Positions 3,598 through 21,115 of a DNA stretch of 23,327 bases are shown here, piece after piece. The stretch comes from a virus: positions 1 to 23,327 of IMG/VR virus record IMGVR_UViG_3300047444_000253. One strand, 5' to 3'. The translations under genes and the position numbers were made by a program. The stretch's first letter is position 1. Each line of letters begins with the position of its first letter. Below the pieces are notes generated by a model. The model saw only the letters and a program-made list of their open reading frames with translations, was not told the DNA's origin and made no database searches.

Positions 3598-6113
3598 TGG
3601 CAACCGAACGGGAAGATTGCATCGACCGGATCATCAAGCAGACCGGCGGGCGCATTGGTCGCAAGGCATTAGAGGACGAACTCGACAAACTGTTTGAGGC
3701 GGCCAATAACGAGGATGGCCGCCCGCCCGCCTCGGCGATGGCGGAAGCGGCCCGCAAGCTCAACGACAAGTTTCTAGAAAAGTCCGCGCTCGATAAGCGC
3801 AACGCCAGAGAGTCGGCACTAAAATATACCGACCTGAAACGCCGCACCAAGCTAGGCCCGGATGCCTTTAGCAGCATCGACGCCATCCTAGTCGGGGCCA
3901 CCAAGGCGTTCGAGGGCAGCAAGAAGTCGGTGCAGGCCGTCATGCACGGCCTACGTGACCGTTTATCGGGCGGGCTAATTACCGACATGAAGGCCAAGGG
4001 CGTCCACGACGCCTTCGTGTCGGGCACCATCGAGGACGAAACGCAACTTGAACTCTACGAGTTGAACCGGGGGAAATTGGGCAGCCCCGGCGTCACAAAA
4101 AACACCATGGCGCTAGAAGCCGCCAAGGTGATCGAGAAGTGGCAGAAGATCAACGTCGATTACATGAACAAGGCGGGAGCCTGGATCGGCTCCTACCTCG
4201 GCTACATCACCCGCACTACCTACGATTCAGACAAAATCCGCCTTTCTGGCATGGACTACTGGAAGTCCAAGGCTAAGGAACGGATGGATTTGGAGCGCAC
4301 GTTCGGCAAATACAGCGACGTGCAATACGACAAGATCCTGACCGAAATGTACGGCAGGTTCGTGCGCGGTGAACACAAGCTCTATCAACTGCCGCTGGAC
4401 GATCTGGATGACTTGGGCAAGGGATTCGACATTGCCCGCAAGGCTTCCGCCCATCGCGAGGTGCATTGGAAGGATGGCCGCTCGTGGATGGAAAACAACA
4501 AGGAGTTTGGCGAAACCGGATTTAAGGATTCCGTCATTGGTTCTCTGCAAAACGGTGCCCGCACGGCCTCGTTGTTGCAGGCTTTCGGGAACGAACCCCG
4601 CCTTGCCTTTGAAAAACTGCTGGAGGAAACGAGGGTTGGGATTTCCGATCTGACGCAACGCAAGGCGTTCGAGAGCAAAATACCGTTCCTGCGAAACGAG
4701 TTTGCCTATCTTGATGGCTCTGCCAATATTCCGGTCAACGAAACAAGGGCGAGACTGGTCGGCAACTGGATGGCAGTCATGCGCTTGGGCCATCTGGGGT
4801 TCATGCCGTTCACATTGCTAGGCCATGGCACCACCAAGTTCTCCGAAATGCGCTGGCACGACATGGGCGCATTGGAACGCATCGGCAAGTCACTCTCTAG
4901 CTTCTTCCCGGCCCCCAAGGGATCGTTCAACGAGCAAGTCATCAAGATGGCCAATTGGGGTCAGGAGGCCGAGGTCGGCAGCATCCTCGCCCAATACGAC
5001 GCCAAGGACACGACGGTTGGAATGTTAAGCCGGTGGGAGGAACGGTTCTTCAAGTGGACCGGCTCTACTTTCATGACGGTTAACTCTCGGTCCAATCTGA
5101 AGGCCATGATAGCCAAGTCCATTGGAGAAAAATACGGCAAGCCATTCGAGGAGCTAGGCGCCCACGAACGGATGCTCTGGAACCAATACGGCATCGGCGG
5201 CAAGGCCGAATGGGATTTGTTCAACAAGGCCAATTGGCTTGAACTCAGCGGCGAGCGGGCTTTCACGCCCGATATTGTCCACGATATTCCTGACGCCGAC
5301 GTGGCCTCATACTTGAAGGCCAAGGATAAGAAAGTCCTGACCGAAGCGCAAATGACGCGGGCGGTGGCGAAGTTCAAGGATGATATGTCGCTCACGCTGG
5401 CCGGATACTTCGCGGATCGCGGCAGCATCGGCGTTCTTGAAGTCGGCGCTAAGGAACGTGCCCTGCTCTATGGTTCGACACGTCCGGGCGACCCGTACAA
5501 CATTGCCAAGAAACTGCTGTTTCAGTGGAAGCAGTTTCCATTGACCATGATGACAAAGGTGTGGGCGCGGGAACTGTACGGCGGTCAGGACAAATCGCAA
5601 ATCACGCGAGGTCTTATTGAACTCGCCATTGCCTCGACGGTCGCGGGTGCCGCCGCCAATATGTTGAGTCATGCGGCAAGAGGACAAAACCCCGTGAGCG
5701 ATTGGCAGAACCATCCCATGCAATCTCTAGCCGCATCCTTCATTCGTGGCGGGGCAGGCTCCATCTTGGGCGACTTCATGCTCGGCAATTACTCCCGGTT
5801 CGGACATTCGTTCCTCTCGACCTTGGCGGGTCCGACGATCTCTCAACTGGAAGATATCAACACCATTCGGCAGGACGTTTTACACGCCGCGCAGGGACAC
5901 AAGGCGCGTGAAGGCATTACAGAAACCGTGCAACTCATCCGTCGCAATACGCCGTTCATCAATACGTTCTACACGGAAATGGCGATTGATTATCTGTTCA
6001 TGTACCGATTCCAGGAATGGATGAATCCCGGATATCTCCGTCGCCATGAACAGCGCGTCAAAACACAGTCCGGTATTGACTACTGGCTGAAACCTTCCTC
6101 GGTCGTTCACTAG
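3597..6113 (+). CDS. Large virion protein, probable ejection/internal protein (838 aa)
   Basis: The GTG start overlaps the previous stop (TAGTG), giving tight coupling. The protein is mostly helical and charged at the N-terminus (residues 1-110, many Lys/Glu/Arg). A hydrophobic Ala/Gly stretch lies near residues 675-750 (IELAIASTVAGAAANML; GGAGSILGDFMLGN). Just before it is LLFQWKQFPLTMM, and near the C-terminus YLFMYRFQEWMNPGYLRR. This pattern of 'FQ-K-FP' plus a Tyr/Arg-rich tail recalls the last large structural protein of several podoviruses of proteobacteria, from memory only. It lies directly before the tail appendage genes. I infer a virion protein released with or guiding DNA into the host; the exact role is unknown. 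Confidence 0.55.
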   Translation: MATEREDCIDRIIKQTGGRIGRKALEDELDKLFEAANNEDGRPPASAMAEAARKLNDKFLEKSALDKRNARESALKYTDLKRRTKLGPDAFSSIDAILVGATKAFEGSKKSVQAVMHGLRDRLSGGLITDMKAKGVHDAFVSGTIEDETQLELYELNRGKLGSPGVTKNTMALEAAKVIEKWQKINVDYMNKAGAWIGSYLGYITRTTYDSDKIRLSGMDYWKSKAKERMDLERTFGKYSDVQYDKILTEMYGRFVRGEHKLYQLPLDDLDDLGKGFDIARKASAHREVHWKDGRSWMENNKEFGETGFKDSVIGSLQNGARTASLLQAFGNEPRLAFEKLLEETRVGISDLTQRKAFESKIPFLRNEFAYLDGSANIPVNETRARLVGNWMAVMRLGHLGFMPFTLLGHGTTKFSEMRWHDMGALERIGKSLSSFFPAPKGSFNEQVIKMANWGQEAEVGSILAQYDAKDTTVGMLSRWEERFFKWTGSTFMTVNSRSNLKAMIAKSIGEKYGKPFEELGAHERMLWNQYGIGGKAEWDLFNKANWLELSGERAFTPDIVHDIPDADVASYLKAKDKKVLTEAQMTRAVAKFKDDMSLTLAGYFADRGSIGVLEVGAKERALLYGSTRPGDPYNIAKKLLFQWKQFPLTMMTKVWARELYGGQDKSQITRGLIELAIASTVAGAAANMLSHAARGQNPVSDWQNHPMQSLAASFIRGGAGSILGDFMLGNYSRFGHSFLSTLAGPTISQLEDINTIRQDVLHAAQGHKAREGITETVQLIRRNTPFINTFYTEMAIDYLFMYRFQEWMNPGYLRRHEQRVKTQSGIDYWLKPSSVVH

Positions 6114-6120
6114 GTATCCA

Positions 6121-6900
6121 ATGCCAGAAATCCAAGGCAACAGCACCGTCGATAGGCTGGACGGTGTAAACCAAGGCGTAGCCTTCAAGGCGCCCGTCCG
6201 CTGCACGACGACGGGCTCTGACATTGGTGTGTTGACCGGACTGTTGACGCTGGATGGCGTGACGTTGATTGAGGGCGACCGCGTACTGGTCAAGGACCAG
6301 ACCGACGAGACGCTAAACGGTATTTACAATGCCTCGGCGGGCGATTGGGTAAGAACGCTAGACGCCAACGGCAACCGGGACTTGGTGTTTGGTTCTGCCG
6401 TTATCGTCAATGAAGGCACGGCAAACACGAGAGCGGTGTGGGCTCTCACTTGTACTGATAATCCGATTGTCATCGACCAGAGCCTTCTTACGTGGCAGCC
6501 TATCGGGTTCGCCACCATCACGATTGGCGCATTGCCACTATCGGCAAAAACCTCAGCCATTGAGTTCATTATATTTGGGTCTCCCATAGCAACCGGGGTA
6601 GCGGGCGACGTAGAGGTTCCTTGGGATTGCACAATCGACCGTGTGACGCTCGCCGGGGATACGACTGGATCAATCGTGGTCGATATCTGGGTGGGCGCCT
6701 ATTCCGGATATCCGCCGACCGTTGCCAATACAATAACGGCTGCCGCGATACCGACCATAGTTAGTGGCACCAAGTACCAGGACACGACCCTGACCGGATG
6801 GACTAAAAACATGAACGCGGGGCAAATGATTAGATACAACGTCAATTCTGTTTCCGCATTTGCCCGCTGCCTTGTGTCCATTCATGTGACCAAGAGGTAG
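6121..6900 (+). CDS. Tail fibre/appendage protein, two-domain
   Basis: ATG follows TAGGT seven bases after the previous stop. Residues 1-120 are a beta-rich module common in phage tail appendage proteins, with DGVTLIEGDRVLVKDQTDET and NGIYNASAGDW, ending near LTWQPI. Residues about 145-259 form a second beta-sandwich-like module with VPWDCTIDRVTLAGD, GSIVVDIWVGAY, YPPTVANTITAAAIPTI and LTGWTKNMNAG, a C-terminal unit I know from many phage tail proteins. The N-terminal module is repeated alone in the next gene. The likely role is receptor binding or decoration at the tail tip. Confidence is good for the tail assignment, lower for the exact position in the virion. Confidence 0.75.
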   Translation: MPEIQGNSTVDRLDGVNQGVAFKAPVRCTTTGSDIGVLTGLLTLDGVTLIEGDRVLVKDQTDETLNGIYNASAGDWVRTLDANGNRDLVFGSAVIVNEGTANTRAVWALTCTDNPIVIDQSLLTWQPIGFATITIGALPLSAKTSAIEFIIFGSPIATGVAGDVEVPWDCTIDRVTLAGDTTGSIVVDIWVGAYSGYPPTVANTITAAAIPTIVSGTKYQDTTLTGWTKNMNAGQMIRYNVNSVSAFARCLVSIHVTKR

Positions 6901-8731: not shown

Positions 8732-8991
8732 TGCCAGCAATTATTCTTTGGCTTATCGAAAGTAAGTTAGGACGAACCGTAGCCATATCGGTTGCTATCT
8801 TCATTGGCGTTGGAATTGGATGGTTGGTATTTGCAACTCATTACGAGAATATAGGGTATGCAAAAGCAATCCATGCCATAGCTGCACAGGATTCAAAAGC
8901 TATTAGCGAGGCACAACATGCGCGTCAGACTGTTAAGGACTGTAGGGATAGTGGCCATCAGTGGAATGTCAGCAGCGGGATGTGTGAGTAG
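8731..8991 (+). CDS. Inner-membrane spanin subunit (Rz-like, 86 aa)
   Basis: ATG at 8731 overlaps the stop of the HNH gene (TAATG); a GTG at 8704 in frame is less likely. A single membrane segment occupies about residues 13-33 (RTVAISVAIFIGVGIGWLVF), followed by a short periplasmic helix with KAIHAIAAQDSKAISEAQHA. The N-terminal anchor, periplasmic tail, position after the holin, and a lipoprotein gene nested in another frame at its 3' end together identify it as the i-spanin. It would link to the lipoprotein next door to fuse inner and outer membranes in the last step of lysis. It is shorter than lambda Rz. Confidence 0.75.
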   Translation: MPAIILWLIESKLGRTVAISVAIFIGVGIGWLVFATHYENIGYAKAIHAIAAQDSKAISEAQHARQTVKDCRDSGHQWNVSSGMCE

Positions 8992-9304
8992 TAACCTACC
9001 GGCTTCTATTGCTGGTGGAGAATGTAGAATCTTCCGCGCCCCTGATTATGCTATTCGTGGTAAAACCCAGGACGATCAAAATTACATAGATGATAACACT
9101 GAGGCGGGCATTGCCGCCTGCAAGTGGGCTCGCCCCAAGGCGCGGCCAGCCCCGGTCGTCGCACATCAAGCCGTCGTCGTGAGGGGAAAGACTAAGTTAA
9201 TCCCCGTGGCCGCGCCTCCGGTCAAGTCAACCGTGCCAGCCCCGCCTCCGGTCAAGAAGCATTGGTGGCAGAGGATAAGGCACCATGCCGCGCCGACGCC
9301 GTAG
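8918..9304 (+). CDS. Outer-membrane spanin lipoprotein (Rz1-like, 128 aa)
   Basis: It begins inside the i-spanin gene in another frame (74-nt overlap). The N-terminus is a lipoprotein signal, MRVRLLRTVGIVAISGM then SAAGC with the lipid-carrying Cys22. The mature part is Pro-rich toward the end (APPVKSTVPAPPPVKKHW), the usual feature of Rz1 proteins. At about 107 mature residues it is longer than lambda Rz1, and two further Cys (C36 and C68 regions) are present. It should sit in the outer membrane and pair with the product of the overlapping gene. Confidence 0.75.
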   Translation: MRVRLLRTVGIVAISGMSAAGCVSSNLPASIAGGECRIFRAPDYAIRGKTQDDQNYIDDNTEAGIAACKWARPKARPAPVVAHQAVVVRGKTKLIPVAAPPVKSTVPAPPPVKKHWWQRIRHHAAPTP

Positions 9305-9746
9305 ACCACCGCCTCCTCCACCGTCATACTTTGAGCGCGCTGTCGCTTGGATCAAGCGCAATAAAACGGTAACGACTTTTATCATTGGCTCCTTCGTCGC
9401 GGTTCCTAGCCTTTGGGCTAGTGTCGAGTTTCTCGATAAGGTCACTGATGATATCCAATTTGCCCGCCACGTCTATGTAAACGGCAGGGTCGATACCGTT
9501 GCCAAGAAAGCCGAGATATTGGGCGAGCAAAACCAAAATATTCTGCGCGATTTGCAAGTTGATACCGCCAATGGAAAGCTAGACGCAACTACAAATGAAC
9601 TAAAACGCTGGCAGGTAGAGTTAGCAAAACCTGGAAATGACCAACGTACTATTGATCTAATAACGCAGCGCATTAACGTCCTGACCGCTACCAAGGATAA
9701 GATAGACGCCCAACTCAAGACGCTGACTGCTATTACAGGTAAATAA
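9285..9746 (+). CDS. Membrane-anchored coiled-coil protein, unknown (153 aa)
   Basis: ATG lies 20 nt inside the end of the o-spanin gene. The N-terminus is strikingly basic and Pro-rich (PRRRRRPPPPPP), then one membrane segment at about 27-47 (TVTTFIIGSFVAVPSLWAS), then a long charged helix-forming region (60-150) with heptad-like leucines such as QNQNILRDLQVD and ELKRWQVELAK. The membrane anchor with a coiled coil and its place in the lysis cassette suggest a lysis-associated or virion-exit accessory protein. I do not recognise the family. Confidence 0.6.
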   Translation: MPRRRRRPPPPPPSYFERAVAWIKRNKTVTTFIIGSFVAVPSLWASVEFLDKVTDDIQFARHVYVNGRVDTVAKKAEILGEQNQNILRDLQVDTANGKLDATTNELKRWQVELAKPGNDQRTIDLITQRINVLTATKDKIDAQLKTLTAITGK

Positions 9747-10437: not shown

Positions 10438-10662
10438 CTAATCCTTCAAAGCGAGATATTCAGGCCACGCAATCTGCTTCGGGCCGGAAACGCAGATACG
10501 AGGATCACCTAGTTTTTTCATCATGCGCCAGTGATGTTCGGCTGCGATCTGCTCGTCCGTATAGCTAGAAAGATCGGCAGGGAAGTAGCACATTTGGGCG
10601 TGTGGTCCGCGATGGGCGCATCCTGCGGAGGTTTGACATTCAAGGCGGCTACAGACGTTCAT
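10438..10662 (-). CDS. Cys-rich small protein, paralogue of the next gene (74 aa)
   Basis: The N-terminal half is MNVCSRLECQTSAGCAHRGP then MCYF, nearly the same as the start of the gene at 10685-10870. The Cys/His spacing C-x4-C-x5-C-x-H is consistent with binding a metal, probably zinc. The second half is divergent, with Trp/Pro-rich IAWPEYLALKD. It is the last gene of the leftward array. The start is preceded by the array's conserved element (AATAGGCCGCCA before ATG). A short Cys-rich family like this is frequent in phage accessory regions; function unknown. Confidence 0.65.
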   Translation of the reverse strand: MNVCSRLECQTSAGCAHRGPHAQMCYFPADLSSYTDEQIAAEHHWRMMKKLGDPRICVSGPKQIAWPEYLALKD

Positions 10663-10684
10663 TGGCGGCCTATTTTGTTAGGTT

Positions 10685-10870
10685 TTACTGGTAGCCTCTG
10701 CGCGGGCAGAGAGGGTTCATGCAGGTCTGTTCAGAAGTTGGTGGGCAAATGCACCCCATTGGAGGCGACGACGGAAATACTGGAGCGCCGAAATAACACA
10801 TTTCACCCATCGGTCCGCGATGAGCGCACCCTGCACTAGTTCCACATTCAGTTCGGTCACATACGTTCAC
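10685..10870 (-). CDS. Cys-rich small protein, paralogue (61 aa)
   Basis: It starts at GTG (NVCDRTECGTSAGCAHRGP), preceded by GAGGAATAGGCCGCC. The first 27 residues match the neighbouring 74-aa protein almost residue for residue; the C-terminal half instead adds a Cys cluster, CICPP...CMNPLCPRRGY. The two genes look like a local duplication whose 3' parts have diverged or been swapped. Likely a small metal-binding protein; the partner is unknown. Confidence 0.65.
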   Translation of the reverse strand: MNVCDRTECGTSAGCAHRGPMGEMCYFGAPVFPSSPPMGCICPPTSEQTCMNPLCPRRGYQ

Positions 10871-10886
10871 GGCGGCCTATTCCTCG

Positions 10887-10919
10887 TGGGAAGAGCGGCC
10901 CCGGTTTGCGCTCTTCCCA
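10887..10919. other. Perfect 11-bp inverted repeat (hairpin) between leftward genes
   Basis: TGGGAAGAGCG and CGCTCTTCCCA are exact reverse complements around an 11-base loop. It occupies most of the only gap over 50 bp in the leftward array (10871-10952). No T run follows on either strand, so it is not a standard terminator. It could be an RNA processing or mRNA-stability hairpin ahead of the Cys-rich pair. Confidence 0.7.
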
Positions 10920-10952
10920 AGTTGCCGATTTAGTCTCCGGGCGGCTAGCGGG

Positions 10953-11153
10953 CTATTTCTCCAAACTGTGCCAGCGCAAACCGATGAACGTGACATCATC
11001 GTGTGGCCTGACTTCCATTGTTGCCGAATGACGTTCGCTCGGAAGCAAGTCATCCCATACGGCGGTCAGCCATTTAATGAAATCCACGGCTTGCGTCTCA
11101 GGATAGACGGAAAGGGTGCGACTGTTCATCACTGATCTACTGCGTCCAGCCAT
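10953..11153 (-). CDS. Small protein, unknown (66 aa)
   Basis: ATG follows the array element (ATTAGCCCCGCCA). The protein is basic at the N-terminus (MAGRSRSVMNSR), with a hydrophobic/aromatic middle VDFIKWLTAVWDDLLP and a C-terminal strand-like DVTFIGLRWHSLE. The composition suggests a small folded alpha/beta protein. I do not recognise it. It is transcribed with the rest of the leftward array. Confidence 0.55.
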   Translation of the reverse strand: MAGRSRSVMNSRTLSVYPETQAVDFIKWLTAVWDDLLPSERHSATMEVRPHDDVTFIGLRWHSLEK

Positions 11154-11169
11154 TGGCGGGGCTAATCCT

Positions 11170-11316
11170 CTAGGCGTGAATGACGCTCAGGCGAGTTAAA
11201 TGCTGTGGCCCGATCCGGCGCACTCTGCGAATATAGTCCGCCGCCTTCTTGCGATCAGTGAACGTCGCCTCATGGTAGTTCGCCCAATCGTGCCATATTA
11301 CATAAATCTCAAACAT
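11170..11316 (-). CDS. Small basic protein, unknown (48 aa)
   Basis: It reads MFEIYVIWHDWANYHEATF at the N-terminus, then a basic helix (DRKKAADYIRRVRRIG) and ends LTRLSVIHA. ATG is preceded by GAGGAGGAATAGGCCCGCCC, combining a Shine-Dalgarno-like AGGAGG with the array element. It lies eight bases after the upstream stop. The pattern of a beta strand plus an Arg-rich helix resembles small phage inhibitors or nucleic-acid binders, but no family is recognised. Confidence 0.55.
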   Translation of the reverse strand: MFEIYVIWHDWANYHEATFTDRKKAADYIRRVRRIGPQHLTRLSVIHA

Positions 11317-11324
11317 GGGCGGGC

Positions 11325-11486
11325 CTATTCCTCCTCGGCGGCTTCGATGCCAACCGATGTAAACGCCTCACACTTAAAACAGTACCACCCATTCGGATGA
11401 TCTTCGTCCCCATTGATCCAGACGCAGGGCTGGCCGCAGATAGCGCAGTGGCCGCAGATAGCGAAGTGTATGTCGCTTGATTTCAC
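11325..11486 (-). CDS. Zinc-ribbon-like small protein with duplicated knuckle (53 aa)
   Basis: It starts at GTG after the array element (TAAGAGCCCGCC). Residues about 8-21 read FAICGHCAICGQPC and a later WYCFKC supplies a second Cys pair, so a zinc-ribbon-like fold is likely. The DNA for the first Cys block is an 18-bp tandem duplication. The end is acidic (EAAEEE). The upstream neighbour's stop is ten bases away. Function unknown. Confidence 0.6.
   Translation of the reverse strand: MKSSDIHFAICGHCAICGQPCVWINGDEDHPNGWYCFKCEAFTSVGIEAAEEE
11433..11468 (-). repeat. 18-bp tandem duplication inside the zinc-ribbon-like gene
   Basis: Two adjacent 18-bp units (11433-11450 and 11451-11468) differ at one base. 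They encode the repeated Ala-Ile-Cys-Gly block of the 53-aa protein. The in-frame unit length looks like replication slippage that added a Cys pair. Confidence 0.85.
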
Positions 11487-11495
11487 GGCGGGCTC

Positions 11496-11693
11496 TTAAT
11501 CCAAGTTGACTGGCGCGTAATGAACGCGCTCCGTTTCCATGTTTTTAATCACCATCAAATCGCTCAGACGCGAATTGCCGAATGGCGGTCCGATTTTCAT
11601 CAGCCGAATAAATTTATCCATCGCGTCTTTCTCGTCCTGCGCCGCCAGTAGAACGTGAACATTACCGCTCGATACCTTGGCGTGCATGGGCAT
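11496..11693 (-). CDS. Small protein, unknown (65 aa)
   Basis: Two nearby ATG codons (MPMHAK) lie after ATAGAGCCCA, a shortened form of the array element. The sequence has a strand-like VHVLLAAQDEKDAMDKFI, a helix, then a second strand region LMVIKNMETERVHYA. Strand-helix-strand order with acidic patches suggests a compact alpha/beta protein. No family recognised. Confidence 0.55.
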   Translation of the reverse strand: MPMHAKVSSGNVHVLLAAQDEKDAMDKFIRLMKIGPPFGNSRLSDLMVIKNMETERVHYAPVNLD

Positions 11694-11699
11694 TGGGCT

Positions 11700-11876
11700 C
11701 TATCTCGTTTCTGTTAAGGCTATTTTGGCGTAGGTTCTATGGGCTACACCATATTCAAGATCGCAATCGGCTATCTTTCTAAGCGCCGTCCGCAGCCGTT
11801 CGATTTCGTCGTGTAACCGCTCTATTTTGTCGCGCAGTCCGGCAACTTCATTGAATGATGGTGCGAGTTCGCTCAT
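11700..11876 (-). CDS. Short coiled-coil protein (58 aa)
   Basis: MSELAPSFNEVAGLRDK is followed by a clear heptad pattern (IERLHDEIERLRTALRKI) that predicts a dimeric coiled coil over residues about 12-36. The C-terminal part is mixed (YGVAHRTYAKIAL). ATG is preceded by AAAATAGCCCC and lies four bases after the upstream gene's stop. A comparable short coiled-coil gene is at 14633-14788 on the other strand. Likely a small adaptor; partner unknown. Confidence 0.6.
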   Translation of the reverse strand: MSELAPSFNEVAGLRDKIERLHDEIERLRTALRKIADCDLEYGVAHRTYAKIALTETR

Positions 11877-11880
11877 GGGG

Positions 11881-12126
11881 CTATTTTGACAATTCTAGTG
11901 GCGAAGCATACTCAGCCGCTGCCAAGAACTCGCTAAATGGCTTTTCGATGTACAACTCACTCAACGTTTCAAGCATTTTTGCGGCAACAGTTTCTGATCC
12001 CACTATATCTAAGATCACCAACAGATCGAGAATAGGATCACGGGTTCCGGGATTCTGCTGAGGATTTGTTCTTAGGTGGGCGGCGACCCTGATTGTGGTA
12101 TCGTCGGTTCTAAATTGGTAACTCAT
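11881..12126 (-). CDS. Small helical protein, unknown (81 aa)
   Basis: The frame is open back to 12183, but ATG at 12126 follows the array element (GGAATAGCCCCGAAG) and sits eight bases after the upstream stop, so I start there. The N-terminus is polar (MSYQFRTDDTTIRVAAH). The C-terminal half is helical with hydrophobic spacing: DPILDLLVILDIVGSETVAA and KMLETLSELYIEK. No Cys, no signal. Unknown function. Confidence 0.6.
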   Translation of the reverse strand: MSYQFRTDDTTIRVAAHLRTNPQQNPGTRDPILDLLVILDIVGSETVAAKMLETLSELYIEKPFSEFLAAAEYASPLELSK

Positions 12127-12134
12127 CTTCGGGG

Positions 12135-12317
12135 CTATTCCTTCAACAATTCGGTTGCCTCTTTGCGCCACACGTCCAAGCACGTCACGCCGTCTGCCGC
12201 CATGTCGTTCGGGTCATTCTCGATCATGGCTTTTGCAAGCGCCTCAAGCCGACGAACGTAGGCAATCTCGTGGTAGTAGAGATCGCGGTGAACGGTGGTT
12301 AGCTGCGGCTCGCTCAT
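12135..12317 (-). CDS. Small helical protein, unknown (60 aa)
   Basis: The sequence starts MSEPQLTTVHRDLYYHE, then an amphipathic helix (RRLEALAKAMIENDP) and ends in a second helix (DVWRKEATELLKE). ATG follows GGTAGAGGCCGATC. A small two-helix protein of this kind is common in early regions of phages; I do not recognise a family. Confidence 0.55.
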   Translation of the reverse strand: MSEPQLTTVHRDLYYHEIAYVRRLEALAKAMIENDPNDMAADGVTCLDVWRKEATELLKE

Positions 12318-12340
12318 GATCGGCCTCTACCTTGTGAGGG

Positions 12341-12535
12341 TTATCGCTGTGGGCGTGTCTTGCGTGTTTCGATCACACCCTCGACTTCTTGAACGCCCTC
12401 AAGGCGATAAACGCCCATCTTGATCTTTTCGCCCAATTCGGCAGCGTCCATTGGGTTGTCGTAAGCGCCCAAGTATTCCGGGCCGGTCCCTCCATCTTCC
12501 CACTTCACATGCAAGACTTTTGGAAACTTTGCCAT
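12341..12535 (-). CDS. Small protein, first gene of the leftward array (64 aa)
   Basis: It starts MAKFPKVLHVKWEDGGTG and has a helix around PMDAAELGEKIKMGVY and a strand-like VQEVEGVIETRK. The ribosome site CAGGAGAAGG is the best in the array and may be the ancestral form of the degenerate elements downstream. Its promoter at 12556-12585 should drive all ten leftward genes. Unknown function. Confidence 0.6.
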   Translation of the reverse strand: MAKFPKVLHVKWEDGGTGPEYLGAYDNPMDAAELGEKIKMGVYRLEGVQEVEGVIETRKTRPQR

Positions 12536-12555: not shown

Positions 12556-12585
12556 TATATAAAACCTTGACGTAGCCGTTGTCAA
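12556..12585 (-). promoter_or_regulatory. Leftward sigma70-type promoter
   Basis: On the minus strand TTGACA (12580-12585) is followed, with a 17- or 18-base gap, by TTATAT/TATATA (12556-12562). It is placed just upstream of the 64-aa gene and its AGGAGAAGG site. It is one of the best consensus promoters in the window. Confidence 0.75.
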
Positions 12586-12587
12586 GG
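12565..12587. repeat. Palindrome over the divergent -35 boxes
   Basis: CCTTGAC and GTCAAGG are exact inverted repeats separated by nine bases. The element TTGAC also occurs at 12549 and 12607, making four TTGAC/GTCAA half-sites within 63 bp. It may be an operator or a recombinase (res-like) site. Confidence 0.75.
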
Positions 12588-12622: not shown

Positions 12623-13243
12623 ATGGGGTTTCTAGTCGGCTATGCCAGGGTTTCAACGGAAGATCAACGACTCGACCTACAAATCGACGCGCTCAAGGCA
12701 GCGGGGGTCTTGGACGACAATCTTCATGTTGAAAAAATATCTGGCGCGTCATCAAAAAGACCGGAACTCGACCTTGCGATTAAAGACCTCCGGGAAGGTG
12801 ACACTTTCGTTGTGTGGCGTCTCGACCGTCTTGCAAGGTCTATGCGCCAACTCTATGCCCGTCTCGACCAAATCTACGCCAAGGGAGCCTACTTCCGATC
12901 CCTCCAAGAAAGCTTCGACTTTGGAACTGTCAGCGGCAAACTCGTACTTGGCGTCCTTGGGCTTGTTGCTGAGTTCGAGCGGCAAATTATCGCCCAAAGG
13001 ACGTCTGCCGGTATTGCCGCCCTTAAAGCCCGCAAGGGTGCAGACCATAGGTGGGGGCGGCAGTTGTATATGACACCGGAGCGCGTCCGCCTCGTCGGGG
13101 ATTACTTGAACGGGCGGAACGGCAAGCCCAAGTTAAGCGGGCCGAAGATCGCCAAGAAAATGAAGGTCTCGACGGCCTCGATCTATGGCTACTGGAAACA
13201 AACCGGCAAAGGCACATTTGTCCGTAAACGCGATAAAGCATGA
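12623..13243 (+). CDS. Small serine recombinase (resolvase/invertase family, 206 aa)
   Basis: Members of this family cut and rejoin DNA through a serine-phosphate intermediate. The catalytic N-domain is intact: GYARVST with Ser11, GASSKRPEL, and WRLDRLARS (residues 65-73) with the conserved Arg residues. A long helix follows with LVAEFERQIIAQRTSAGI. The C-terminal part (about 155-200) is a helix-turn-helix with SGPKIAKKMKVSTASIYGYW. Its length matches Tn3-resolvase/Gin-type enzymes, not the large integrases. The ribosome site is weak. It opens a rightward group of microgenes, and its stop overlaps the first 69-nt repeat. It probably autoregulates from the upstream palindrome. The substrate could be multimers, an invertible segment outside this window, or host DNA. 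Confidence 0.9.
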   Translation: MGFLVGYARVSTEDQRLDLQIDALKAAGVLDDNLHVEKISGASSKRPELDLAIKDLREGDTFVVWRLDRLARSMRQLYARLDQIYAKGAYFRSLQESFDFGTVSGKLVLGVLGLVAEFERQIIAQRTSAGIAALKARKGADHRWGRQLYMTPERVRLVGDYLNGRNGKPKLSGPKIAKKMKVSTASIYGYWKQTGKGTFVRKRDKA

Positions 13244-13311
13244 GGAGATTTGTTCCCCACCGGACCTAAGCCGGTAAGTCGGCTCCCGGTGGGGTTATAA
13301 AAATAGGAGTT
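13243..13311 (+). repeat. 69-nt hairpin leader, copy 1
   Basis: It is identical over 69 nt to 13837-13905. It contains a nested stem-loop: CCCCACCGG (13255-13263) pairs with CCGGTGGGG (13286-13294), and inside it AGCCG pairs with CGGCT around GTAAGT. ATAGGAG, a ribosome site, follows the stem and precedes the 47-aa gene. It begins on the last base of the recombinase stop codon. Confidence 0.95.
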
Positions 13312-13322
13312 TAGAAATCCAG

Positions 13323-13466
13323 ATGCAGCCCGCAGAGAAAAATCGCTTAAGCATCCTTGTGGAAACAGTCTGTGGCCGTCGGCAAGATAAAGACCGAGCA
13401 GGCGCAGGGGCACCCTCGACCCGCTTTGGCAACGGGATGGAATTAACAAAACAGGAGCGATTGTGA
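13323..13466 (+). CDS. Microprotein (47 aa), unknown
   Basis: ATG is 12 bases after the end of the first 69-nt leader. It encodes a basic, low-complexity product: MQPAEKNRLSILVETVCGRR, then DKDRAGAGAPSTRFGNG. Its stop overlaps the GTG of the next gene (GTGA) with AGGAG in its own tail, so the pair looks coupled. Short and without a recognised domain, it may instead be a leader peptide; moderate confidence that it is translated. Confidence 0.4.
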   Translation: MQPAEKNRLSILVETVCGRRQDKDRAGAGAPSTRFGNGMELTKQERL

Positions 13467-13648
13467 GTGATAGAGATGAATACGGACGGTATGAACCGGA
13501 CGATGACGAGCGCCGCGAAGCATACTTTGCTCGCCGCTTTCGCCGGAAATATCTAACTTGCCTATGCGGGTATCCTGATTGGCCTGGGCAATGTCCTGGC
13601 CCAAAAAACTGCCCAGTTCACGGCGAAGATTTAAGCGACGAGGAATAA
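13463..13648 (+). CDS. Small Cys-rich acidic protein (61 aa)
   Basis: GTG start preceded by CAGGAGCGATT. The N-terminus is very acidic and Arg-rich (DRDEYGRYEPDDDERREAYF). The second half holds Cys33, Cys35, Cys44, Cys50 and His53 in the pattern CLCGYPDWPGQCPGPKNCPVH, consistent with a small zinc finger. The end is acidic again (EDLSDEE). Common type in phage accessory regions; function unknown. Confidence 0.6.
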   Translation: MSDRDEYGRYEPDDDERREAYFARRFRRKYLTCLCGYPDWPGQCPGPKNCPVHGEDLSDEE

Positions 13649-13658
13649 GGAGACGCCC

Positions 13659-13838
13659 ATGCTTCCCGAATCGGCGAAAGCCATCGAAATTGCTGATAAG
13701 CATCTTGTCGGTAAATCTCCAGCGCGACGCGCTGCGCTCGCCAAAGATATTTTAGTGGCGATCAAGGAATACGCCGAGCAAATGGCTACTGACGCCATCA
13801 AGGAAGCCTATTCGTCTGCAACCCCTCGCGTTAATTAG
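13659..13838 (+). CDS. Small helical protein (59 aa), unknown
   Basis: ATG preceded by AATAAGGAGACGCCC. The sequence is helical and Ala/Lys-rich: MLPESAKAIEIADKHLVG, then ARRAALAKDILVAIKEYAEQ and MATDAIKEAYSSATP. Its TAG overlaps the second 69-nt repeat just as the recombinase stop overlaps the first. Not previously recognised by me; ribosome site, composition and fit in the array support it. Confidence 0.6.
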   Translation: MLPESAKAIEIADKHLVGKSPARRAALAKDILVAIKEYAEQMATDAIKEAYSSATPRVN

Positions 13839-13905
13839 GAGATTTGTTCCCCACCGGACCTAAGCCGGTAAGTCGGCTCCCGGTGGGGTTATAAAAATAG
13901 GAGTT
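13837..13905 (+). repeat. 69-nt hairpin leader, copy 2
   Basis: Exact copy of 13243-13311, 594 bases downstream and in the same orientation. It leads, through the same ATAGGAGTT ribosome site, into the Xre-like gene at 13910. The identity includes the loops, so the duplication is recent or is kept by selection or gene conversion. Confidence 0.95.
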
Positions 13906-13909
13906 CTTT

Positions 13910-14134
13910 GTGGCAACACACCGTAAGCCGTTTAAGTGGAAGTCCTTTGGCAAGGATGTGAAACAAATGCGAAAATCTATGGGGTGCGGATTGAGACAGA
14001 TCGCGCGCAGGGAAAAAATATCCCGTTCAACATGGTGCCGCGCAGAACAAGGGAAGCCCTTGACCGTGCCTCAATTCTTAAAATTTTGTCTTTGGATGCA
14101 CCTTGATCCGTTCGCCTATATGGTCACGAGGTAG
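13910..14134 (+). CDS. Xre/Cro-type helix-turn-helix protein (74 aa)
   Basis: GTG start just after the second 69-nt leader. A helix-turn-helix is visible at about residues 27-55: GLRQIARREKISRSTWCRAE followed by QGKPLTVPQFLKFCLWM, as in Cro/CI-like repressors (the SRSTWCRAEQG recognition helix). The basic N-terminus (HRKPFKWKSFGKDVKQMRK) is short. It is about the size of Cro. It could regulate the divergent promoter at 12540-12600 or the 69-nt leader itself; that is inference. Confidence 0.75.
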   Translation: MATHRKPFKWKSFGKDVKQMRKSMGCGLRQIARREKISRSTWCRAEQGKPLTVPQFLKFCLWMHLDPFAYMVTR

Positions 14135-14145
14135 AGGAGTCTGGA

Positions 14146-14526
14146 ATGTCACAACGCGACAAGCATGAGTTTCAGTTCACCGGCAAGCAGATCGGTGACG
14201 CAGCCAAAGCCGAATACGAGTACCACGGCAATCGCGTTATCTTTTGGAAAAAGGAACAGCGCGATGCCATCGACAAGGCCAAGGCTCTCGGTTTGGAAGT
14301 TTCTGAATACCAGGTGACGGGCGGCGTTCACGCTCAGATGGTCATCAACCCGACGCTGCAAGCGAGGATCAATGAGTGCGCAAATAAGATTCAGACACAC
14401 CAGCGAGCAGCCGACGCCTTCCAGATCGAGGCGGCGGCGTATGGTACGCAAGCGGAGCGCGTCTATCAGCTTCATGCAGACGATGTGATCTATTTCCGGC
14501 TCGCTGGCAGCCATCGTCCCGAATGA
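14146..14526 (+). CDS. Soluble protein, unknown (126 aa)
   Basis: ATG with AGAGGAGTCTGGA upstream, 11 bases after the Xre gene. The N-half has GKQIGDAAKAEYEYHGNRVI and WKKEQRDAIDKAKALGLEV, the C-half a long helix with Gln/Ala (ARINECANKIQTHQRAADAF). No membrane segment and no Cys cluster. I do not recognise the family; the gene is intact and its composition matches its neighbours. Confidence 0.65.
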   Translation: MSQRDKHEFQFTGKQIGDAAKAEYEYHGNRVIFWKKEQRDAIDKAKALGLEVSEYQVTGGVHAQMVINPTLQARINECANKIQTHQRAADAFQIEAAAYGTQAERVYQLHADDVIYFRLAGSHRPE

Positions 14527-14548
14527 CTTGAATGTAGAGGAGATTTTC

Positions 14549-14623
14549 GTGGGACAGTGGATGATCGCAATCGGAATGTTTATTTACGGAGTTTCGATGT
14601 TGATGCGTTCTCTTGGATATTAG
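14549..14623 (+). CDS. Membrane microprotein (24 aa)
   Basis: GTG preceded by GAGGAGATTTTC. It reads MGQWMIAIGMFIYGVSMLMR then SLGY: one hydrophobic helix and a short basic end. The strong ribosome site, close spacing and an overlapping ribosome site for the next gene (TAGGAGG on its stop) support translation. Products of this size often modulate a membrane protein; target unknown. Confidence 0.55.
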   Translation: MGQWMIAIGMFIYGVSMLMRSLGY

Positions 14624-14632
14624 GAGGCGACC

Positions 14633-14788
14633 ATGGGAAAGAAGCAAAAGCCTGAGCCGTCACCTAAGCCAAAAATGGTTTTTGACATTGCTATATTTGA
14701 ATCTGCGGCTACTGAGATCGAGCGACTACAGAGGGTGATCGAGGATCTAAAGGAGGAAAACAATGCTCTACGATCCAAAGTGGAATAA
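14633..14788 (+). CDS. Short coiled-coil protein (51 aa)
   Basis: ATG with AGGAGGCGACC. A basic Pro/Lys head (GKKQKPEPSPKPK) is followed by FDIAIFESAATEIERLQ and a heptad helix RVIEDLKEENNALRSK. It overlaps the next gene by 26 nt and supplies that gene's ribosome site (AAAGGAGGAAAAC). Its build recalls the 58-aa coiled-coil gene of the leftward array. Confidence 0.6.
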   Translation: MGKKQKPEPSPKPKMVFDIAIFESAATEIERLQRVIEDLKEENNALRSKVE

Positions 14789-15020
14789 ACCAACTTTACA
14801 GGGCTTCATTGCTTGGCTTGGTCAACAGCCGCCCGAGCAGGAATACGAATACAATTCCTGCAATGTTTGCGCTATCGGGCAATACGCCAACTCGCTTGGC
14901 TTGCGGTACATCGACATCCTTGAGGATACCGACGTAACACATTGGAACAATGTTATAGCGTTCCCGCTTCCTAGAACTTTCGGCGCAGCTTATCAGCGAG
15001 CGTTACAGGCTCAACCGTGA
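14763..15020 (+). CDS. Small protein, unknown (85 aa)
   Basis: It begins MLYDPKWNKPTLQGFIAWLG and contains YNSCNVCAIGQYANSLGL (a CxxC) and a C-terminal part ending FGAAYQRALQAQP. The family is one I have seen as an unnamed product in phage genomes of Alphaproteobacteria, without a function. Excellent ribosome site inside the preceding gene. The stop overlaps the next start (GTGA). Confidence 0.65.
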   Translation: MLYDPKWNKPTLQGFIAWLGQQPPEQEYEYNSCNVCAIGQYANSLGLRYIDILEDTDVTHWNNVIAFPLPRTFGAAYQRALQAQP

Positions 15021-15187
15021 CTGAGAATGAGAGGGGCGCAGGACCTTTTACGCCAATGCAGAAGCTATGGGTGGGCATTGTTCTGTCTATTTTGATATGT
15101 GTTTATCTGGCATTTTTAGTTGGCTGCACGACAACGCAGACTGATTGGAGCGGGATAGCTAAGACTGTGGGGCGGAGTAGTCCCTAG
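15017..15187 (+). CDS. Lipoprotein-like membrane microprotein (56 aa)
   Basis: GTG at 15017 overlaps the previous TGA; an internal ATG at 15056 is also possible. After a polar head there is MQKLWVGIVLSILICVY, then LAFLVGC with Cys37, a good lipobox, and a short Thr/Ser tail (TTTQTDWSG). Likely an inner- or outer-membrane lipoprotein; such phage lipoproteins often act in superinfection exclusion, but that is not shown here. It converges with the HNH gene on the other strand (4-nt overlap). Confidence 0.6.
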   Translation: MTENERGAGPFTPMQKLWVGIVLSILICVYLAFLVGCTTTQTDWSGIAKTVGRSSP

Positions 15188-18195: not shown

Positions 18196-18352
18196 AAAAA
18201 TTGGTCGCCCCAAGACCTACCGGGTTCCGGTGCTAGTCAGGATGGACCGCAAGGTTCTTAAACTACTGGACCGTTGGCGAAAATTGGCGCCCATTACGAG
18301 GGCCGAGGCCATCCGTCAGATTGTTGATGATTTTGTGAGGGGAAACCCATGA
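18179..18352 (+). CDS. Ribbon-helix-helix (CopG/Arc-like) regulator (57 aa)
   Basis: ATG with AAAGAGGATGG upstream. After a basic head (MPKSISKIGRPKT), the strand YRVPVLVRMD (residues 14-23) is followed by helix A, RKVLKLLDRWRK, and helix B, TRAEAIRQIVDDFV, the strand-helix-helix order of the family, which binds DNA as dimers through the strand. It is too short to have been listed in a plain ORF scan at 60 residues. It is divergent from the recombination promoter, so it likely represses that promoter and itself. The stop overlaps the next start (ATGA). Confidence 0.85.
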   Translation: MPKSISKIGRPKTYRVPVLVRMDRKVLKLLDRWRKLAPITRAEAIRQIVDDFVRGNP

Positions 18353-18810
18353 AATGGTCCGACGCTCAAATCGAGCTTCTTAGGCGCCTGCACGCGACTA
18401 AGGAGACATTTTCCCAGATTGCTTGGTCTATCAACCGGACCTTCGGCACGTCTTTCACGCGCAACGCGGCCATAGGCCAAGCGGGGCGCCTGCACTTAGA
18501 GTCCCGCGCCCCTGCCGGGAACCAGTCGGCCCGCGCCAAACGCACCAAGCCCCGCGTCCGCAAGTCCTACGTCCCCCGCCCACAGACCTTTGAGCCTAGT
18601 CAAATCCCGACCGCGTTCACTGTGACACTGATGGACCTGGAGCCGTGGATGTGCCGGTACGTCGAGGGTGACGGGCCGTTCTACTACTGCGGCCAGCCAG
18701 CGGCAGAGAACACGTCATATTGTGCATTGCACCATGAGGTCTGTCATGTTTGCTCCAACTATCAGCGAGTACGAGCTACAACTAGATCACCATTACCGGG
18801 AGGTTCGTGA
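18349..18810 (+). CDS. gcrA: GcrA-family cell-cycle regulator homologue (153 aa)
   Basis: GcrA is an alphaproteobacterial sigma70 cofactor that activates promoters at methylated sites. The N-terminal DNA-binding unit is seen: MKWSDAQIELLRRLHATKET, SQIAWSINR, and the recognition helix TRNAAIGQAGRLHL (residues 37-50). A basic Pro-rich linker follows (60-85). The C-terminal part TLMDLEPWMCRYVEGDG then YYCGQPAAENTSYCALHH has Cys102, Cys114, Cys125 and His128/129, the RNA polymerase-binding/zinc-like end of the family. The length is slightly below bacterial GcrA. As a phage copy it could redirect host transcription at GANTC-methylated promoters. Overlaps the RHH gene and the next gene. Confidence 0.85.
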   Translation: MKWSDAQIELLRRLHATKETFSQIAWSINRTFGTSFTRNAAIGQAGRLHLESRAPAGNQSARAKRTKPRVRKSYVPRPQTFEPSQIPTAFTVTLMDLEPWMCRYVEGDGPFYYCGQPAAENTSYCALHHEVCHVCSNYQRVRATTRSPLPGGS

Positions 18811-19378
18811 GCGGCTAATGTGCCCACAGGCCACGCGCCCGGACACGCCCATTGAGTTTAGAAGGCCGGTTGGCCTCACAGGCTGGCAAGCGGATAAAAA
18901 CCGACAGGCGGCCATTGCTAGGGCAAAGGAGGCGGTTTACGAAGCCCAGGCTACGATAATAGCAGCGCAAGAGGCTTTTCCAGAGATTGATTTCCTACAC
19001 CCTGACTACCCAAGAACGCACACATGGCCGAAGGGTTTTATCAACAGGATAAAAAAATTAGTCTGCAAGGAATTTAACATATCCCTCATAGACATGGAGT
19101 CGGCAAGACGATTGGACGCTTATGTTCTTCCGCGCCATGTCGCAATTTATCTGTGCAGAACTCTCACAATTAAATCGTATCCAGAGATAGCCCGTCGTTT
19201 TGGCGGGCGAGATCACACAACCGCAATCCATGCTGTCCACAAAACAGAGGAACGGATGTTGGCCAACCGAGACTTTTGTCAAATTGTGGTGTTGCTACAA
19301 GAAAAGCTTGAGCGGGATTTGGCGTCGTGGCGTTCTAATGGTACTGTTTCAAGTGGAGATTCGCGATCTCCACTCTAG
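18746..19378 (+). CDS. Stand-alone DnaA domain IV protein (210 aa)
   Basis: ATG at 18746 has ATGAGG six bases upstream and sits inside the end of gcrA in another frame; earlier in-frame ATGs (18668, 18734) lack a good site. Residues 1-90 are a helical region without a known domain. From about 95 to 170 the sequence matches the DNA-binding domain IV of DnaA: FINRIKKLVCKEFNISLID, SARRLDAYVLPRHVAIYLCR, SYPEIARRFGGRDHTTAIHA with the GGRDHTT signature. DnaA domains I-III (including the ATPase) are missing, so it can bind DnaA-box-like DNA but cannot melt origins. It lies just before two hairpins and the replication gene. Confidence 0.88.
   Translation: MFAPTISEYELQLDHHYREVRERLMCPQATRPDTPIEFRRPVGLTGWQADKNRQAAIARAKEAVYEAQATIIAAQEAFPEIDFLHPDYPRTHTWPKGFINRIKKLVCKEFNISLIDMESARRLDAYVLPRHVAIYLCRTLTIKSYPEIARRFGGRDHTTAIHAVHKTEERMLANRDFCQIVVLLQEKLERDLASWRSNGTVSSGDSRSPL
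19352..19374 (+). other. Hairpin at the end of the DnaA-IV gene
   Basis: AGTGGAGAT and ATCTCCACT are exact complements around the loop TCGCG, a 9-bp stem that ends just before the stop codon at 19376. No T run follows. Together with the next hairpin it lies ahead of the replication gene. Confidence 0.8.
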
Positions 19379-20252: not shown

Positions 20253-20625
20253 GGCGCAAGACCCGGAAGCATTTGCCAATGCCTTGACTGCTATTTTGTC
20301 GGAATATGATAGTCAAGTTGTTGATTATGTTGCCGACCCACGTACTGGCGTAGTTACCGAATTTCCCATGGGATTACCAAATGTCGGGCAGATTAGGGAG
20401 TTTTGCGACAAGATTCGGCATCGGATGCACGAGGCAGCAAAGCCGATAACTCGTGCAATAGCAAAACCTTATGTACCTCCTCCGGTTAAGCCGGGACAGG
20501 TGACCTATCAGGAATTTACCAAGTTGGCGGCGGAAGGAAAAACCAAATCGCGGCCTATTGGGAGATTTGAGGACAAGGACGACAAGTGGAATCGAGGTGT
20601 TGGCTATGCTCGCCCCACCGTCTAG
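20086..20625 (+). CDS. Replication-associated protein, unknown (179 aa)
   Basis: ATG with GGGAGG five bases upstream lies well inside the replication gene in another frame. The N-terminus is polar (MDTEDRDHFKTMQNPSQRRL). From about residue 45 it has QQAAKAICGCYRRDEAQDPE, a helical part FANALTAILSEYDSQV, DPRTGVVTEFPMGLPNVGQI and a Pro/Lys linker. The phrase LPNVGQIREFCD is typical of unnamed phage proteins following replication initiators. A helicase-loader-like role is possible but unproven. Its end overlaps the NusG-like gene by 20 nt. Confidence 0.7.
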   Translation: MDTEDRDHFKTMQNPSQRRLDVWKKQQHEASLRSSPGQPYYQQAAKAICGCYRRDEAQDPEAFANALTAILSEYDSQVVDYVADPRTGVVTEFPMGLPNVGQIREFCDKIRHRMHEAAKPITRAIAKPYVPPPVKPGQVTYQEFTKLAAEGKTKSRPIGRFEDKDDKWNRGVGYARPTV

Positions 20626-21115
20626 CCAAAACTGCTACGTTTTCGTAGCCCACCCCCACGCAGAAACCCGCGCCTGTGCGAAAATCTCCGCGCTAGGTTT
20701 CCGTACATGGCTGCCGATAGAAAAACGCATCCACCGCCGCCCACGGGGCAAGCCGGTGGTCCGTGAGAATCCCCTGTTTCCGCGCTACGGGTTTGTCTGG
20801 TGGGGCCCGTCCGACGACTACGGCGCTATATTGCACTGCAAGGGCGTCATGGATTTATTGCCCAACCGAACCCGTCCGATAGCCGTCAACGAACACCTGA
20901 TAGAAGGGCTGAAGCTGGCAGAGCAGATAGGTGTATTTGACAGAACGAAGCCGCCGCGTGTCGGCCACAAGGTCGAGGTCATGGACGGCCCTTACGCACA
21001 ACAGATAGGCCACATTGCCCGAGCGCGGGCCGCTGATAGGGTGAAGGTCATGTTGAGGGTATTCGGGGCGCTGCGGGAGGTGGAGGTTCCGCTAATGGCG
21101 CTGCGTGAGGTCTAG
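20606..21115 (+). CDS. NusG/RfaH-like transcription factor (169 aa)
   Basis: ATG at 20606 has GAGGTG six bases upstream; the frame is open earlier, but those residues are not NusG-like. NGN domain: QNCYVFVAHPHAETRACAKI, ALGFRTWLPIEKRI, then NPLFPRYGFVWWG and ILHCKGVMDLLP. KOW domain at about 117-145: PPRVGHKVEVMDGPYAQQIG. Length and order fit NusG. NusG-type proteins bind RNA polymerase and alter pausing, termination or antitermination. As a specialised phage paralogue it likely promotes read-through of GC-rich hairpins or represses host genes. It is last in the rightward early operon. Confidence 0.85.
   Translation: MLAPPSSQNCYVFVAHPHAETRACAKISALGFRTWLPIEKRIHRRPRGKPVVRENPLFPRYGFVWWGPSDDYGAILHCKGVMDLLPNRTRPIAVNEHLIEGLKLAEQIGVFDRTKPPRVGHKVEVMDGPYAQQIGHIARARAADRVKVMLRVFGALREVEVPLMALREV

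Follow-up and report, generated by a model that had tools for sequence, protein, structure and literature searches.

A 69-nt hairpin element duplicated between stop/ribosome-site joints of a viral microgene array headed by a serine recombinase gene

The recombinase and its microgene arrays

The window, i.e., the entire 23,327-nt stretch of viral DNA analyzed here (IMG/VR record IMGVR_UViG_3300047444_000253), encodes a serine recombinase of the resolvase/invertase type (12623–13243, + strand; PF00239, E = 7e-38; PHROG 125, DNA invertase), the best PDB matches of which are DNA-invertase chains. Two divergent microgene arrays flank this gene, and both are present in the window: the leftward array (10438–12535, − strand) and the rightward array, of which the recombinase is the first gene. 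All further features of the rightward array lie on the + strand. The recombinase is followed by the first copy of a 69-nt element (13243–13311), a 47-aa ORF (13323–13466), a 61-aa microgene with a Cys-rich C-terminal half (13463–13648), a 59-aa microgene (13659–13838), the second copy of the element (13837–13905), and a 74-aa Xre-like HTH gene (13910–14134). The remaining microgenes, of 126, 51, and 85 aa and smaller, occupy 14146–15020, and the array is closed by a lipoprotein/spanin-like gene of 56 aa (15017–15187), as it is by similar genes in three relatives (L131, L143, and L144).

The initial annotation counted three microgenes between the two copies. The 61-aa gene is, judging by its homologues, a real gene, because relatives are encoded in seven other viral contigs (68–97% identity). 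The 59-aa gene is preceded by a good AGGAG, and its own stop codon TAG shares bases with the AGGAG at the start of copy 2. The 47-aa ORF is doubtful. The start codon nearest to copy 1 is 13 nt away from AGGAG, which is a poor ribosome-site spacing, and no relatives of this ORF were found; for these reasons, copy 1 possibly serves only a decayed gene, or none at all. The position of copy 2 is favorable, its AGGAG being followed, at the ideal spacing of 6 nt, by the GTG start codon of the Xre-like gene. The identification of the latter as an Xre regulator is backed by an HTH_19 match (E = 8e-4) that is weak and falls below the Pfam cut-off. A viral contig that also carries the 61-aa gene, L007, contains a tandem array of at least ~17 repeats of 27 nt (3977–4624).

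Several other features of the window should be mentioned. An Erf-type annealing protein (PF04404) is encoded in it, as is a phage protein of the NusG/RfaH type (20603–21115, +; PF02357, E = 1e-7). A gene for a GcrA-type regulator (PF07750), followed by a gene for a DnaA C-terminal-domain protein (PF08299; together 18349–19378, +), points to an alphaproteobacterial host. Upstream of the recombinase lies a dyad, CCTTGAC-N9-GTCAAGG (12565–12587), which may be an operator or a site of recombination; several relatives have dyads of this type at the corresponding place.

Recombinase relatives, 12 at first and then 47, were compared with the window. In the close set (L131 and L143–L148; 78–92% amino acid identity), a series of tiny genes likewise follows the recombinase, and its content varies by virus. 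The rightward joint between neighboring genes has the form AAATAGGAG(cggcc)ATG; its TAG terminates the preceding gene and overlaps the ribosome site. The leftward joint is different, TTGAAGGAATAGGCC(gcc)ATG, the joints of the leftward array of the window being of the type TTGAAGGAATAGGCCgccATG. L144 also has a divergent leftward array (4966–6400, −) with the joint TTGAAGGAATAGGCC(gcc)ATG. Several genes of the leftward array end in LKE or LKD codons, since this joint extends into the coding sequence. Two neighboring microgenes of the window are 71% alike over 80 nt (10582–10661 and 10790–10869; MNVCSRLECQTSAGCAHRGP / MNVCDRTECGTSAGCAHRGP).

The hexamer TAGGAG occurs 2–9 times per 2.5 kb downstream of the recombinase in the window, L131, and L143–L148, versus 0.2–0.5 expected, and AATAGGCC is enriched on the opposite side of the recombinase in several of these viruses. 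In most of these arrays, TAG of almost all TAGGAG hexamers is the stop codon of an open frame and has a start codon after it. The window is less strict in this respect than L131 or L147, as a start follows two of its four TAGGAG. According to a simple gene caller that demands a ribosome site, 48 of 67 intergenic gaps are 8–13 nt long; the gap that holds copy 2, 71 nt as called, is one of five in the range of 41–99 nt.

Identity, fold, and distribution of the 69-nt element

Direct-repeat comparison within the window confirmed what the initial annotation had reported, namely that the sequences at 13243–13311 and 13837–13905 are identical at 69 of 69 positions and spaced, start to start, by 594 nt. 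Extension of the alignment gives 72 nt at 99%, with the sole mismatch located immediately 5′ of the 69-mer. The runner-up direct repeat in the 23.3-kb window reaches only 71% identity, and an exact direct repeat of 69 nt is far beyond chance. Both copies, as described previously, open on a stop codon and end in a common ribosome site, although the gene behind copy 1 is doubtful. Copy 1 (AGGAGATTTGTT-hairpin-TTATAAAAATAGGAGTT) begins with the final base of TGA (13241–13243), the stop codon of the recombinase, and runs from this stop/SD joint to the next SD; copy 2 opens within the stop codon TAG of the 59-aa gene (13836–13838) and runs from that joint to the SD preceding the Xre-like gene. Thus, the 69-mer spans from AGGAG of one joint to TAGGAGTT of the following joint, and the 3′ end shared by both copies is ATAGGAGTT. 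The string AATAGGAG occurs twice in the window, each time within a 69-mer, and up to eight times in relatives, mostly in the array.

For the RNA of the 69-mer, a stable hairpin is predicted (−27.7 kcal/mol, z = −3.0), with none of 200 shuffled sequences being equally stable. The fold consists of a 9-bp stem, CCCCACCGG/CCGGTGGGG, an asymmetric internal loop, ACCUA/C, a 5-bp stem, AGCCG/CGGCU, and a 6-nt loop, to which weak outer pairs are added. In copy 1, the hairpin occupies 13255–13294 (+), with outer arms at 13255–13263 and 13286–13294 and inner arms at 13269–13273 and 13280–13284; copy 2 has the same fold (13849–13888, +). An A-rich stretch and then the ribosome site follow on the 3′ side. 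It should be noted that the opposite strand folds equally well or better (−28.8 kcal/mol, z = −4.0); for this reason, the fold alone carries no information on which strand, or whether DNA, matters. What is said below of the function of the hairpin derives from the folding of a single sequence. The predicted accessibility of the ribosome site is unequal between the two copies. Folds of longer leaders, in which long-range pairing masks the ribosome site of the Xre-like gene, were no better than those with shuffled flanks, and a leader peptide of 16 codons (TTG TTC CCC ... TTA TAA) was set aside, as AGGAG is just 2 nt from its TTG.

It is extremely improbable that the 69-mer is an intrinsic terminator or that its repetition is an assembly artefact. 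The hairpin is GC-rich, as a terminator would be; however, both strands lack a U-run 3′ of the stem (TTATAAAAAT on +, AACAAATCTC on −), which sets it apart from intrinsic terminators, and a pattern scan of the 69-mer returned neither a terminator nor a promoter match. An artefact might be suspected in a single metagenomic contig, but each copy has unique flanks, and 69 nt is shorter than the usual read length. Rfam, at the curated threshold, gave no matches in the whole window.

No homologue or further copy of the 69-mer was found in viral contigs, phage and plasmid records, the whole records of the relatives, or ~780 sampled genomes of one order and its class, sets that may not include the records closest to the genome of the window. 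The only match in the phage and plasmid records, of 20 nt and located in a tail gene, is due to chance, and the ~780 genomes gave one 21-nt match (E = 0.009); the negative result in these genomes is weak, because the recombinase was not found there either. Exact and gapped stem patterns detected nothing related in viral contigs, the matches in L010 and L011 being unrelated GC hairpins, and chance GC hairpins were among the matches listed in the gapped-stem scan of genome contigs. A covariance model of the 69-mer, applied to the relatives, gave only weak, joint-like matches (L136, E = 0.58; L131, E = 1.9). A similar hairpin is absent near the 61-aa homologues in all seven viral contigs. Other non-coding slots in relatives (81 nt in L147 and 63 nt in L145) do contain hairpins, the fold of which is no better than that of shuffled sequences. 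Among the viruses compared, no collinear array with zero or one copy of the 69-mer was found, and the duplication is therefore not polarized. The hairpin is at present a single-virus curiosity. The shared post-transcriptional control of two genes proposed in the initial annotation thus lacks support, no homologue having been found and the gene behind copy 1 being doubtful; nor were variable numbers of the unit seen, as no relative has any copy of the 69-mer.

These results also bear on the view that the serine recombinase uses the 69-mers as att- or res-like sites, placed around an excisable 594-bp unit in an integron-like array. Copy 1 does open on the recombinase stop codon, and in relatives the variable array starts with the recombinase gene, which is conserved. 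However, such sites should be conserved together with the enzyme, whereas the 69-mer is missing from the close relatives despite an enzyme identity of 78–92%. Moreover, the dyad at 12565–12587 is a better putative candidate for a recombination site, and what the joints have in common is no longer than a ribosome site. Unlike integron-like systems, the arrays have no site at cassette boundaries that is conserved with the recombinase, and their joints share only the short stop/SD motif. In our opinion, this explanation is highly improbable.

Repeat ends and cassette exchange in related viruses

Duplications that end at joints are found in several relatives. In L148, a complete Dam methyltransferase gene (PF05869) makes up a 511-nt segment present in two identical copies (8838–9348 and 11521–12031); each copy starts with AGGAG and finishes in TTGAGGAGC, so that both ends lie on AGGAG. 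A repeat of at least 252 nt in L146 has its left end at AGGAGCG, its other end being off the contig, and a 98-nt repeat in L159 likewise has its left end at AGGAGCG. The right ends of a 28-nt repeat in L147 and of a 96-nt repeat in L152 and L153 (a pair counted once) are in AAATAGGAGC and AGATAGGAGG, respectively. Altogether, 8 of 11 repeat ends fall on AGGAG, or 6 of 9 without the window, and with ends assigned to classes by eye, the latter count corresponds to P ~1e-6 if joints make up 5% of array sequence and to 3e-3 if they make up 20%. A 73-nt exact repeat in L168 (4364–4436 and 5661–5733, at the recombinase 3′ end and 1.3 kb downstream) belongs to a distant, differently organized virus and was left out.

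The leftward array of the window provides an example of exchange. A cassette at 10438–10672 (−) is 97% identical to L144 4966–5200, while its flanks are unrelated and the recombinase genes of the two viruses share only 71.4% DNA identity. The borders of this cassette are a start joint and a stop codon TAG.

The events in these sequences are joint-bounded; the data do not show that AGGAG itself is the crossover. Because all joints contain AGGAG, two copies will match across it regardless of the exact position of the break within the joint. Moreover, selection for intact genes would also favor breaks in joints. The joint-ended duplications and the swapped cassette of the relatives agree with the earlier suggestion that units may be lost or amplified, with the qualification that the unit is better described as an AGGAG-bounded 69-nt slot than as the 594-bp, three-gene unit originally proposed.

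Known systems and the role of the hairpin slot

The start-associated sequences (SAS) and extended SAS (ESAS) of Cluster K mycobacteriophages are nearest in kind to the element described here. SAS are 13-bp asymmetric motifs with the consensus GGGATAGGAGCCC, located directly upstream of start codons in 11–19 copies across the genome, and ESAS have 17-bp imperfect inverted repeats upstream, in which changes do not preserve RNA pairing; the function of both is not known (PMC3203893). Similar SAS are present in Microbacterium Cluster EF phages (PMC7302621). Both in SAS and in the arrays, a ribosome-site motif that includes ATAGGAG is repeated before small genes, sometimes with the stop codon of the preceding gene, and, as with ESAS, an inverted repeat lies directly upstream of the motif in some cases. 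Nevertheless, the 69-mer is not a member of this family, because motif, copy number, and inverted repeat all differ. Thus, the 69-mer ends in AAAATAGGAGTT and the joints of the relatives read AAATAGGAGcgg, only the ATAGGAG core being common with the SAS consensus; the motif here, AAATAGGAG, is that of one array, whereas SAS are genome-wide; the hairpin, different in sequence, is present in two copies in one virus; and its arms, of 9 and 5 bp, are perfect and of other sequence than those of ESAS.

The comparison with ESAS, which were judged likelier to be DNA-binding sites than hairpins (PMC3203893), lends some weight to the idea that the inverted repeat acts as DNA, as the operator of the Xre-like regulator or another protein-binding site, and copy 2 is indeed immediately upstream of the HTH gene. 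We nonetheless consider this quite unlikely: the inner and outer arm pairs are off-centre, with 5 nt between them on one side and 1 nt on the other, an uncommon arrangement for a DNA dyad, and a promoter match is absent from the 69-mer.

Alternatively, the hairpin may be a processing site at which host RNase III cuts the RNA into separate mRNAs with defined ends. Its location between genes, just ahead of a ribosome site, and its architecture of a 9-bp stem, asymmetric loop, 5-bp stem, and weak outer pairs would suit this role, and R1.1, the RNase III site of T7 early mRNA, is likewise an intergenic hairpin with an asymmetric internal loop (4/5 nt in a 60-nt RNA; PMC6121014). The geometry, however, is only partly like that of the T7 site, and the paired length is short, which matters since the enzyme of the alphaproteobacterium S. 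meliloti needs longer dsRNA than does that of E. coli (PMC6121014). In contrast to the T7 sites, the present hairpin has short stems, and no family of sites related to it was found. Processing by RNase III is, on balance, unlikely.

A further parallel is gene 14 of Corndog, which is flanked by a 17-bp direct repeat, whereas relatives have just one copy of this sequence (PMC4351075). Small-gene turnover and a direct repeat at a stop/start junction are common to both cases. Unlike in Corndog, no empty site was found in relatives, and the joint motif is array-wide and is found also at the duplications of other cassettes.

We favor, at a probability of about 0.55, the reading in which the 69-mer is a gene-free slot of the microgene array, copied by recombination with breaks in the joints, and most likely a leader that provides insulation or independent initiation. 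The identity of the copies, their fold, the joint motifs, and the joint-bounded duplications and exchange in relatives were observed, whereas we infer the mode of recombination and the insulation. According to this reading, tiny exchangeable cassettes, linked by stereotyped stop/ribosome-site joints, would flank the serine recombinase, and the 69-mer would have reached its second joint through recombination with break points in joints. The route we favor is recombination at AGGAG based on homology or microhomology, with the Erf-type annealing protein of the phage as a reasonable candidate agent. At the ordinary joints of 8–13 nt, with the stop codon inside the ribosome site, a terminating ribosome could restart directly. 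The hairpin slot would shift the next ribosome site by ~60 nt, placing a stable stem and an A-rich segment ahead of it, and the Xre-like gene would thereby be uncoupled, or insulated, from translation of its upstream neighbor.

A bolder proposal is that the recombinase-centred divergent arrays form a gene-capture platform, in which the serine recombinase or Erf carries out joint-specific insertion, duplication, and exchange, and the hairpin is a functional non-coding cassette. We regard this as very unlikely.

Whatever the role of the hairpin slot, the array and its joints are of greater interest than the hairpin itself. The origin and rearrangement of the many tiny genes of phages is a long-standing question. 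With a shared joint, and with duplications and swaps that end there, the idea that translation signals may serve as recombination seams becomes directly testable.
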